From Candidatus Zhuqueibacterota bacterium (GTDB lineage: Bacteria; Zhuqueibacterota; Zhuqueibacteria; Oceanimicrobiales; Oceanimicrobiaceae): a DNA stretch of 64,000 bases. The notes below the pieces were generated by a model. The model was not told where the DNA came from and ran no database searches. It saw nothing but the letters and a program-made list of their open reading frames with translations. Positions 50,009-52,718 of this stretch are shown here, piece after piece. The translations under genes and the position numbers were made by a program. The number at the start of each line of letters is the position of its first letter. The first letter of the stretch is position 1. Location: positions 1 to 64,000 of the forward strand of contig JAJDAD010000023.1 in assembly GCA_029262055.1 (NCBI GenBank), written 5' to 3'.

Positions 50009-50983
50009 TTACTCTCTCACAATGGCGTACTTCTTGATCTTAAATCGCAAGGTCGCCTCAGGAATGCCCAGTTGACGCGCGGCCTTCACCTGATTGCCCG
50101 CATACTTTCGTAGTGCCTTGCGGATAAGAAACACTTCCACATCCGAAATTGCACCATTCAGATTAGCTATCTCTAAGAAGTCCAGGGGGTTTCTCTTTAC
50201 TTCAAACGGTAGATGGTCCTGGTAGAGCTGGCCGTTACGAGACATCACTACCAGGTTGGCAACACAGTTCTTGAGCTCCTTTATGTTGCCGTGCCATTCG
50301 TACTCGAGGAGCGGTTCAAAGATCTCCGCAGGGACTGCCGGGACCTCAAGTTGGTTTTCCTCACAGTATTCTTTCAGGAAAAGCAGAAGGAGCTCGGGGA
50401 TATCTTGTCGTCGCTCTTTTAGGGTTGGCTGTACAAGACTATACTCAAAAAGAGAGAACAGCTCTCCGTTGAATTCTCCCGACCGAACCACTCTCAGGAT
50501 ACTGCTGTTGGCAGACGCAATCACCCGTGCTTTGAACGGGAGATCTGTCGCTCCTCCGATTTGCTTGTACTTGCCACGCTGTAAGATGGTGGCAAACAGC
50601 AACTGGTATTCCGGCGCCAGATCCGTAAAGTGGTCCAGGAAAAGAACACCTTCACCCACACGCTGTAACAAACCATCCGTGGCAGGCGACCCGTCGCCCT
50701 GTGTTCGACCAACGACATCTCCTTTGTCTAGCGTGTATCCGAGCGCCGCACAATTCAGGACGGCGAACGGGTATTTGTCGCGAGGGCCAAACGCATGCAG
50801 GCATCTGGCTGAGTAGGTTTTGCCACTGCCAAAATCCCCGGTAATCAGGATGTGCTCGTCACCTTTGGCAAGCCTCCTGATGGCGCGATACAGCTTTTTC
50901 GCTGCACCACAGTTACCGACGAACGGTGCTAATTGATTTTCACCGGTATGCGAACTTATTTTAGAACAACCCCCCTTGTACAC
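50009..50983 (-). CDS. AAA+ enhancer-binding-type regulator lacking the GAFTGA loop, with Fis-type HTH
   Basis: A 324-residue protein with no receiver or sensor domain. The sigma-54-activator AAA+ fold is clear: Walker A ITGDFGSGKTYSAR, then LNCAALGYTL, Walker B VLFLDH, IASANSSILR (sensor I), RRQDIPELLLLFL and the YEWHGNIKELKNCVANLV block. Two essentials are altered. The GAFTGA loop that contacts sigma-54 is replaced by TQGDGSPATD, and Walker B has His where Glu is usual. A C-terminal Fis-type HTH (NQVKAARQLGIPEATLRFKI) is intact. It probably binds DNA but may not activate sigma-54. It overlaps the membrane-protein gene by 23 bases, third in the repeat-peptide operon. Confidence 0.8.
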   Translation of the reverse strand: MYKGGCSKISSHTGENQLAPFVGNCGAAKKLYRAIRRLAKGDEHILITGDFGSGKTYSARCLHAFGPRDKYPFAVLNCAALGYTLDKGDVVGRTQGDGSPATDGLLQRVGEGVLFLDHFTDLAPEYQLLFATILQRGKYKQIGGATDLPFKARVIASANSSILRVVRSGEFNGELFSLFEYSLVQPTLKERRQDIPELLLLFLKEYCEENQLEVPAVPAEIFEPLLEYEWHGNIKELKNCVANLVVMSRNGQLYQDHLPFEVKRNPLDFLEIANLNGAISDVEVFLIRKALRKYAGNQVKAARQLGIPEATLRFKIKKYAIVRE

Positions 50984-52055
50984 GCTTCAACGCCAATAGA
51001 TCACCATTCATGGTGCGTTTGCGATATAGAGCCGAAAGATAAACAAACAGAACGGTGACGCCAAACCACAGTGCAGCTAGATTGATTTGCAGAAATAAAG
51101 CAACTTTGAAGTAGTTAAGACCAAAGAGGATAAGCAGCGTTAGAAATGCCAGCGGATTCTTCCAGCGGCCCCAATGTCCCTCCACTAAATTGAGGAACGA
51201 GACCGCATAGGGGTTCTTCCTGCGCTTTATGGGCACGCCCAGATCATTCCCTGAAACCATAATCCGGTCGTAGAATTGGCCGAATGTCGAGTAGACGTGG
51301 CTTAATCTATATGCTAGCGTGAAAAGAAAAAGCGCATGTATGCCCATCAAAAGATACTGGCTCTGCTCAAACAGCCTTATGTCATAAATCAGGCCAACGC
51401 TCTCGATTAGATCCATCAGGATAAGAAAAAAGAAGCACACCATCAGCGTGTTGATATGCTCTCCAAGAGACCGCTCATTCTTATAAAGAAACACGCCATA
51501 GAGCCAAACCATCAGGAAGGATAATGAGGTTAAAGCAAGGACAGCTTTGTAGAGCGGACTATTGTCTGATTGATGCCATAAATATTCCGCATCAACCAAA
51601 AAGGGGAAAAAGTAGTAAACCCAAAACGGCAGCACGATGGCAGCGCTGACCAGATAACAATTTCGCGTGCTGAGCTTTTCGAAAAAAAAGCGCACAAAGA
51701 TGTACGTCACGGCGAGCACGAGCAGGAACGTGACCAGGGCCTTGCGGTACTGGAAAACGGTAAACGCCATAGCATCGTCACCAAACAGGTAGCCCTTCCC
51801 CACCACCAGATTCAGAAAGCTCAGACTACTGACAAGGGAATAGGCCGCAATATTGATAAAGATCGCTTTGTTTCTCTGCTCGCGCAGAGCTATGAAAACA
51901 CATTGCAGAAAGACAAGAAAGAACAATGAACAGTTGAACCAAGATTTCCATGGCATTGCCTGGTGCGGCAAGCAGGCAAGAATAACCAACAAAAGCCCAA
52001 AGCCAAGCCACCAGTTGGCAATCTTGAAGTGTATTTTGAAATTGCTAAAAAGCAT
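50961..52055 (-). CDS. Polytopic membrane protein, putative receptor or transporter of the repeat-peptide operon
   Basis: A 364-residue protein with about ten hydrophobic helices, from GFGLLLVILACL near residue 18 to FGVTVLFVYLSALY near 340. A cytoplasm-like basic loop (VPIKRRKNPYA) precedes the last pair and a basic tail ends the protein. There are no ABC, MFS or kinase motifs and I do not recognise the family. It lies between the secreted repeat protein (69 bases upstream) and the AAA+ regulator (23-base overlap). A role in sensing or exporting the peptide is a reasonable guess from position only. Confidence 0.6.
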   Translation of the reverse strand: MLFSNFKIHFKIANWWLGFGLLLVILACLPHQAMPWKSWFNCSLFFLVFLQCVFIALREQRNKAIFINIAAYSLVSSLSFLNLVVGKGYLFGDDAMAFTVFQYRKALVTFLLVLAVTYIFVRFFFEKLSTRNCYLVSAAIVLPFWVYYFFPFLVDAEYLWHQSDNSPLYKAVLALTSLSFLMVWLYGVFLYKNERSLGEHINTLMVCFFFLILMDLIESVGLIYDIRLFEQSQYLLMGIHALFLFTLAYRLSHVYSTFGQFYDRIMVSGNDLGVPIKRRKNPYAVSFLNLVEGHWGRWKNPLAFLTLLILFGLNYFKVALFLQINLAALWFGVTVLFVYLSALYRKRTMNGDLLALKRVQGGLF

Positions 52056-52124
52056 GTGACCCGAACAGCGGTTAAATAAAAATTCTAAAAGAGGACGGCC
52101 CGGTTGCTAATTCTAAGACTCGCC

Positions 52125-52481
52125 CTACTCCGGCATTAATGTGGGGCGTTTTGGCTCCGGCACTGGATCCATGAAAGTCGGTCGTTTCGGCTCGGGTACC
52201 GGATCCATGAAGGTCGGGCGTTTCGGCTCCGGTACGGGGTCCATAAATGTCGGCCGTTTTGGCTCCGGGACAGGATCCATAAAATTTCCGTAAATCCGAG
52301 TCTCGGAGACGCTTGCATACACCTGTGCTGAAGTCAAAGTTGCAGTTTCGGAGCTGTTTGTCAATCCAAGGGATGCCAGTGCCTGAGGGATGAAATGTTC
52401 GCTGTCCGCGACTGTAAAGCCCACGAGCAGCAACAGATACATGAACACTGATAAAGCGGCAATGAACAGTTTAGTCTTCAT
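52125..52481 (-). CDS. Small secreted protein with four tandem MDPVPEPKRPTF repeats, putative peptide precursor
   Basis: A 118-residue protein. The ATG at 52481 follows a strong AAAGGAGAG; an earlier in-frame start lies between promoter and ribosome site and is unlikely. It begins MKTKLFIAALSVFMYLLLLV, a signal peptide ending near FTVAD. A spacer of about 40 residues rich in Ser, Thr and Ala follows. Then come four contiguous 12-residue repeats (MDPVPEPKRPTF three times, with Leu as the last residue of the fourth) and a short MPE tail. The unit is proline-rich with a KR pair. The architecture resembles multi-copy peptide precursors. It opens an operon with a membrane protein and an AAA+ regulator. 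No family is recognised. Confidence 0.75.
   Translation of the reverse strand: MKTKLFIAALSVFMYLLLLVGFTVADSEHFIPQALASLGLTNSSETATLTSAQVYASVSETRIYGNFMDPVPEPKRPTFMDPVPEPKRPTFMDPVPEPKRPTFMDPVPEPKRPTLMPE
52137..52280 (-). repeat. Four 36-bp tandem repeats encoding MDPVPEPKRPTF
   Basis: Units read on the minus strand at 52280-52245, 52244-52209, 52208-52173 and 52172-52137. The encoded residues 1-11 are identical in all four units. Nine of the twelve codons vary; apart from the final Phe-to-Leu change in unit 4, every difference is a synonymous third-position change. For example, the Pro codon at position 3 is CCT, CCC, CCG and CCA in the four copies. Confidence 0.95.
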
Positions 52482-52533
52482 TTTCACACTCTCCTTTCGC
52501 GTCAGTTTGAAGTAAACTGTTCGGGTCGCCAAC

Positions 52534-52562
52534 AATATAGCCGGTGCCGGCTATAAAGTCAA
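52534..52562 (-). promoter_or_regulatory. Promoter of the repeat-peptide operon with a palindromic operator in its spacer
   Basis: On the minus strand TTGACT (52562-52557) and TATATT (52539-52534) are spaced by exactly 17 bases, a near-consensus sigma-70 promoter. The spacer is filled by a perfect palindrome, TATAGCCGG-CA-CCGGCTATA (52555-52536), whose last bases overlap the -10. A dimeric HTH protein bound there would occlude or remodel the promoter. The start codon is about 45 bases downstream of the expected transcript start. No -24/-12 (GG...GC) sigma-54 element was seen. Confidence 0.65.
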
Positions 52563-52718
52563 TCCCAAAACCAAGACCAGATCATCACTGGATAGACTTG
52601 AGCTTTAAATGATGTGCAACTCCTTATGGTTGGTGAAACAAAGAATTACCCGTAGCAACTACCTGAGAATTAAGTAAAGATAACTCCGATTGTCAACACA
52701 TTTCGAGCGATGCTGCGC

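Follow-up and report, generated by a model that had tools for sequence, protein, structure and literature searches.

In the peptide quorum-sensing systems Agr and ComQXPA of Gram-positive bacteria, the genes for the precursor of a variable ligand, a membrane receptor and a transcription regulator lie next to each other. The yeast alpha-factor precursor carries tandem units within one protein, and its receptor, Ste2, has a 7TM GPCR fold. Bacterial 7TM receptors are represented by the 7TMR-DISM proteins. Among regulators, the non-sigma-54 paralogues of the bEBPs (TyrR, DhaR, HupR, VpsR and Caulobacter NtrC) combine an AAA+ domain with a Fis HTH and have lost the GAFTGA motif; bEBPs without this motif are reported to act on sigma-70 promoters, some of them without ATP hydrolysis (PMC10274813; PMC3162934). 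The operon described here lies in a 64,000-nt stretch of DNA (the window) from a member of Zhuqueibacterota, the candidate division KSB1 (PMC11683472). Like Agr and ComQXPA, it sets the three kinds of gene side by side; unlike them, it belongs to a different phylum and has no histidine kinase, receiver or AgrB/ComQ-type processing gene, its putative receptor is a kinase-less 7TM protein and its putative ligand has a tail of multiple units. The likeness to alpha-factor and Ste2 is an analogy of working only: the KSB1 operon has no G protein and no evident Kex2-type processing, its putative receptor may couple directly to a bacterial regulator, and sequence kinship is not evident. In contrast to the 7TMR-DISM proteins, the KSB1 membrane protein lacks the DISM extracellular domain, an attached output domain and profile similarity. 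The KSB1 regulator differs from the bEBP paralogues in that it has also lost the N-terminal sensor or receiver, the Walker-B Glu and sometimes Walker-A residues, and in that its partner is the adjacent 7TM protein. The reading favoured here, at a rough probability of 0.45, is that of a ligand/7TM-receptor/transcription-factor signalling operon with RNA-linked expression.

The locus runs on the minus strand from 52562 to 50009, where a promoter is followed by three co-directional ORFs for the small protein, the membrane protein and the AAA+/HTH protein (Table 1). The initial annotation had named both the three minus-strand genes and a promoter ahead of them, and both calls hold: all three ORFs are present, and the promoter, P2, is of the sigma-70 type (TTGACT-17-TATATT; 10/12 matches in the scan). 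Its placement in front of the RNA-arm motif is identical at the other loci of the window's family. A second TTGACA upstream (window 52691-52696, minus strand) also recurs at the family's other loci and suggests another promoter ~135 bp upstream of P2, with an unexplained leader segment between the two. Where the AAA+ gene starts is uncertain; the GTG at 50983 gives a 23-nt overlap with the membrane protein gene. Read from the gene list, the neighbours of the operon are presumably a 23S rRNA methyltransferase-like gene upstream and a convergent Ada/Ogt-like gene downstream. No dedicated protease or exporter gene lies within the operon.

Table 1. Positions of the operon's genes, promoter, repeats and RNA elements in the window.
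Feature	Position	Strand	Remarks
P2 promoter	52534..52562	-	-35 TTGACT 52562-52557, 17-nt spacer, -10 TATATT 52539-52534
5' RNA arm GACCCGAACAGT, inferred mRNA 5' end	52516..52527	-	pairs with 52069-52058; shuffle p 0.002
Small protein, 118 aa	52125..52481	-	no Pfam/NCBIfam match
Alternative partner of 5' arm, TAAACTGTTC	52464..52473	-	just past the AUG of the peptide; the pairing would enclose it and the SD
Four 12-residue units MDPVPEPKRPT[F/F/F/L], core PxPxP	52137..52280	-	34 synonymous / 0 nonsynonymous
3' RNA arm GCTGTTCGGGTC	52058..52069	-	abuts membrane-gene AUG, in the place of the Shine-Dalgarno
Membrane protein, 364 aa	50961..52055	-	one N-terminal TM, predicted GPCR-like 7TM core, two C-terminal TMs
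Segment superposing on GPCR 7TM domains, residues 28-262	51270..51974	-	VIA-align
AAA+/Fis-HTH regulator, 324 aa	50009..50983	-	without receiver, sensor domain or GAFTGA; Walker-B Glu replaced by His

A first search recovered the membrane protein in 25/60 relatives, and a profile search in 28/82 species of KSB1, including families outside the window's class; the comparative set comprises 35 collected loci. Directly downstream of the membrane protein gene, a regulator of this type is encoded on the same strand at 31 of the 33 loci with room for it, and none of the downstream regulators examined contains GAFTGA. Upstream, again on the same strand, a small protein with a signal peptide or TM segment and a Pro-rich C-terminus is found at 28 of 34 loci with room (L099 enters this count through its overlapping ORF). 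Within the window's family, the matches of the small-protein profile coincide with the nine loci of the membrane protein, leaving no orphan copies, and both partners are missing from the two genomes that lack the membrane protein. The genome of the window carries a second full copy of the operon (at G000:C10), and across 18 loci the divergence of the membrane protein is correlated with that of the regulator (r = 0.80). The three genes form a unit that is conserved in the candidate phylum KSB1, with gene order and co-occurrence kept in many families and in at least two classes, as the initial annotation had proposed to check.

That the three genes might have unrelated distributions is contradicted by their co-occurrence, but the regulator family also occurs without the peptide and receptor. 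At a site marked by an S41 peptidase and rpiA, the full operon is present in G002 and G005 and the regulator alone in G006 and G004 (loci L026 and L028 at G002:C22 and G005:C165, compared with L118 and L119 at G006:C44 and G004:C100). The dnaG neighbourhood likewise holds, depending on the family, either a solo degenerate AAA+ gene (L131, L134, L136, L137) or the full operon (L020, L055). Since the regulator also lives alone, peptide and receptor form a cassette that needs the regulator more than the regulator needs them. Family f4 has kept the membrane protein and the regulator and has no recognisable peptide.

The surroundings of some loci contain further genes. An S41 peptidase of the C-terminal-processing type adjoins the locus at the S41/rpiA site, also in f11 (L120, L121), and a P1/DmpA-like peptidase adjoins the regulator in families f4 and f9 (L007, L009, L029, L122, L123), in some cases together with an AAA ATPase. 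At L105 (G037:C710) and L085 (G040:C351), a canonical GAFTGA-bearing regulator of 456 aa is encoded upstream of the membrane protein gene on the same strand; the downstream regulator is absent at L085, and at L105 the contig ends there. L130 and L133 (G047:C70, G023:C29) have the degenerate AAA+ gene without a 7TM gene, and nearby a different, secreted-looking protein of ~130 aa that ends in APPQAPVFQTQ or similar. A search of public contigs with a 9-residue pattern returned KSB1-type records only; as this pattern can recover only close relatives, it does not prove that the system is missing from other phyla. No report on quorum or peptide signalling was found in the papers on this phylum that were read, and neither PADLOC, whose matches were to the general AAA/HTH of RtcR, nor a plasmid search gave anything useful.

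The small protein consists of an N-terminal hydrophobic segment with an invariant Tyr15, a post-segment element (...GLT) and C-terminal Pro-rich repeats. It matches no family in Pfam or NCBIfam; membership of a known structural family would, by the initial annotation, have spoken against an undescribed system. No described system resembles the operon as a whole. Of the four identical 12-residue repeats that had been noted, all four are present and three are identical (MDPVPEPKRPTF), the fourth ending in TL. Across the 11 shared codons, the units of the window differ by 34 synonymous and 0 nonsynonymous codon changes, which argues that the repeats are a selected peptide sequence and neither a recent nor a chance DNA duplication. 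The unit cores of other loci behave in the same way (synonymous/nonsynonymous 49/0 in L004 and 100/0 in the core of L003), whereas spacer residues vary (46/18 in the 17-mers of L003, 42/16 in L055), and the peptide core is thus the unit under selection. An alignment of 16 small proteins, drawn from several families and classes, shows M1, Y15 and PxPxP to be invariant. The expected variation in repeat number and unit sequence was found: there are four units in the window, eight in L003, five in L004, two in L005 and one in others, and L055, from another family, has five full units and one partial one. The tail units were amplified independently in the window, L003, L004, L005 and L055.

The signal peptide of the initial annotation corresponds to the N-terminal hydrophobic segment, but its cleavage is in doubt: a plausible signal-peptidase site is found in about half of the small proteins, and several have no A-x-A-like site, which together with the invariant Tyr in the hydrophobic segment makes release doubtful. 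The Tyr points to a function of the segment in its own right. A serious rival to the favoured reading is an envelope sensor. Here the hydrophobic segment would keep the small protein in the membrane as a subunit of the 7TM protein, and the tail, rigid and rich in Pro, would sense peptidoglycan, the outer membrane or another envelope partner; the circuit would then report the state of the envelope and not serve cell-cell communication. Besides Tyr15 and the missing A-x-A-like sites, this explanation fits the existence of single-unit members and an operon without protease or exporter, and the Pro-rich, K/R-rich tails recall the periplasmic spacer of TonB. The amplification of an exact short core with free spacers, however, is more what would be expected of a multi-copy ligand or a multivalent epitope than of a spacer, and the members with a plausible signal-peptidase site, about half of them, also argue against permanent anchoring. 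A tethered sensor is considered somewhat unlikely, and all that separates it from the ligand reading is whether the epitope is released from the cell.

The membrane protein has no sequence match in Pfam, NCBIfam or PDB, in keeping with its first description as a protein of roughly ten helices and of no recognised family; an AlphaFold2 model built from 24 sequences (pLDDT 85.7, pTM 0.83) contains ten long helices. The Foldseek matches listed for it are GPCRs (best E 4.3e-3); at 4e-3 and 4.6e-2, the Foldseek E-values are weak, and the TM-scores (0.3-0.4) are modest. With VIA-align, residues 28-262 superpose on mGlu2 (7epa) with Z 14.6 and rmsd 3.7 over 217 residues, and a second model (pLDDT 79.3), whose lead sequence is a distant homologue sharing ~19 per cent identity with the protein of the window, superposes on mGlu3 with Z 16.6 and rmsd 3.7 over 222 residues, against a background in which helical bundles reach Z of about 13-14 by chance. 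What carries the claim of a GPCR-like fold is consequently the agreement between the two models and between their hit lists: the top matches of the second model are class C GPCRs and designed GPCR-like folds, and the PDB structure matches of both 7TM-core models are almost all GPCRs. The models are not fully independent, as many sequences are common to both alignments. K/R counts of the loops (positive-inside) orient the 7TM core N-out/C-in and add one N-terminal and two C-terminal TMs. The protein is thus predicted to be a GPCR-like 7TM bundle, N-out/C-in, with no sequence kinship to GPCRs detectable in Pfam, NCBIfam or PDB; the 7TMR-DISM family (PF07695) matched 1/24 members at E 0.013, with an hhalign probability of 0.5 per cent.

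Only N41 and G86 are invariant in the membrane protein, H31, Y103, L240 and S256 being near-invariant; conserved elements on the predicted cytoplasmic side are the SLGEH loop and the FGQFYD...PIKRKK tail. Such a protein might also process, export or modify a Pro-rich peptide that is secreted and serves at the surface, in the matrix or as an antimicrobial, the AAA+ protein merely regulating the operon. The fixed adjacency of precursor and membrane protein would agree with this, and peptide natural products are commonly made from precursors with several copies. The role of a processing factor is nevertheless quite improbable for a membrane protein that conserves few of its polar residues, lacks a catalytic motif, falls into no enzyme family in Pfam or NCBIfam, yields a GPCR-like model and is strictly linked to a dedicated regulator.

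The regulator comprises PF00158 (Sigma54_activat, 2.3e-27), PF25601 (AAA_lid_14, 6.5e-19) and PF02954 (HTH_8, 2.6e-10), and the domain search, which found no sensor, receiver or other domain besides AAA+ and HTH_8, confirms its annotation as an AAA+/Fis-HTH regulator without a sensor domain. Two further elements are missing. GAFTGA, the loop contacting sigma-54, is absent in all 19 aligned regulators, and the Walker-B Glu is replaced in 19/19 (by His in the window); Walker A is intact in the window and altered in L003, L012 and members of f5/f10. As rpoN is carried by 60/63 genomes, sigma-54 is available, yet the contact loop of the regulator is gone. Given the loss of GAFTGA and the Walker-B Glu, the protein is probably sigma-54 independent and not a sigma-54 activator. 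Neither the membrane protein nor the regulator contains a kinase or receiver domain (Pfam, NCBIfam). A 13-mer considered as a regulon operator was rejected, its off-locus matches lying in coding-like sequence or at background level.

Synthesis of peptide and receptor may be linked through the mRNA, whose 5' end was inferred from the -10 position only. At the nine loci of the window's family, an arm of the GACCCGAACAG type, with Y and G.U-compatible variants, stands right behind the -10 box, and its partner, CTGTTCGGGTC or CTGTTCGAGTC, abuts the AUG of the membrane protein gene, before which no Shine-Dalgarno was seen in this family. At 16/26 loci, leader and receptor start can form a contiguous helix of 10-20 bp that exceeds what dinucleotide shuffles give (p 0.002-0.02), and L079, from another class, adds the helix TGACCCGAACAA/TTGTTCGGGTCA, making 17 loci altogether; a strong inverted repeat at L083, wholly inside the intergenic gap, was left out of the count. 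These shuffles replaced an RNAduplex ranking of cognate and non-cognate arms, which was uninformative because the arms are common to loci inside the family. With ten loci in a common register, the paired share of cells is 83.3 per cent (75.9 in shuffles), and nine pairs show two-sided changes, in 17 cells compared with 9.1 in shuffles. The covariation score was reached by 0/500 shuffles, and slid controls scored far lower. As shuffles ignore relatedness, the strongest argument is that unrelated sequences build an equivalent helix elsewhere: AAAGATCATGTCAATTT-type in f7, TATGCCGGGCCCGG at L050 and TGGGCTGGTC at L014. The covarying pairing is taken as evidence for an RNA helix rather than a DNA operator. 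In Rfam, the leader and intergenic regions had no match above gathering, and one chance-level match fell outside them.

The same inverted repeat could act as DNA, in the form of an operator pair or a recombination site, since its arms sit at the promoter and at a gene boundary and are nearly identical in several loci. Such a DNA element is very unlikely: apart from one exception (L051), the arms differ in their 11-12 bp core by compensatory or G.U changes only, totally different sequences give an equivalent helix in f7, f18 and L014, and elsewhere in the genome the 11-mer is at background (13 matches against 14 for the reversed control, 4 of the 13 at the two loci). It would concern the RNA part only and be compatible with the protein circuit.

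In the window's family and in f7/f12, the 5' arm of the RNA helix can also pair over the peptide start (fold z -1.7 to -5.0); for the hairpin in the window, fold z is -4.4 and the pairing probability in the nascent transcript 0.75. Computed peptide-start pairing in nascent leaders is 0.62-0.81, and in the longer transcript receptor-start pairing is mostly 0.58-1.00 (0.33 in L012, 0 in L020). An either/or RNA switch between the peptide and receptor starts is plausible on these calculations. Covariation supports the long helix only and not the peptide-start pairing; the short hairpin, with no covariation inside the window's family, rests on fold z-scores and on a similar hairpin of different sequence in f7/f12. 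The helix is absent in about nine loci, mostly with short peptide-receptor gaps (33 nt or less). It is thus not essential to the circuit, and its absence at short gaps suggests that it stands in for simple translational coupling. In L019 and L030 of f10, inspection revealed a shorter pairing, GACCCGA, that reaches the initial codons of the receptor gene.

In the favoured signalling circuit, the small protein would be inserted into or exported through the inner membrane and would present its C-terminal PxPxP epitope, often in multiple copies, to the periplasm or to the exterior. The 7TM protein would recognise this epitope and then change its cytoplasmic face (SLGEH loop, FGQFYD...PIKRKK tail), which would capture or release the neighbouring AAA+/Fis-HTH protein, acting as a sigma-54-independent DNA-binding regulator without phosphorylation input. 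The mRNA 5' end would pair with the receptor start, linking ligand and receptor synthesis, and in two lineages may alternatively pair over the ligand start codon, dividing translation. The scheme starts from what is observed, namely operon conservation, the constraint on PxPxP, the motif losses of the regulator and the covarying helix, and adds the predicted 7TM fold, its orientation and the predicted RNA switch. Ligand-receptor binding, receptor-regulator contact, the direction and targets of regulation and secretion enter by inference. The peptide-signalling layout of the initial annotation thus finds support in co-occurrence, gene order and repeat variation, and as a putative circuit it is the best reading. 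A bolder form, in which a multi-copy, proline-rich secreted pheromone acts through a GPCR-fold receptor on a phosphorylation-free, sigma-54-independent AAA+ protein and a covarying RNA switch makes translation of ligand and receptor mutually exclusive, as a choice between sender and receiver, is unlikely.

If the favoured reading is true, the operon would represent a bacterial architecture not seen before, with a ligand, a GPCR-shaped receptor and a DNA-binding regulator working without kinase, second messenger or phosphorylation, and an RNA device coupling the output of ligand and receptor. Whatever the function, a long-range helix with covariation and a family of degenerate AAA+ proteins are new observations. 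The 35 loci with a defined epitope, PxPxP, make a clean comparative set and open cell-cell or envelope signalling to testing in a phylum without cultured members, and the system would bear on whether GPCR-like receptors arose more than once.
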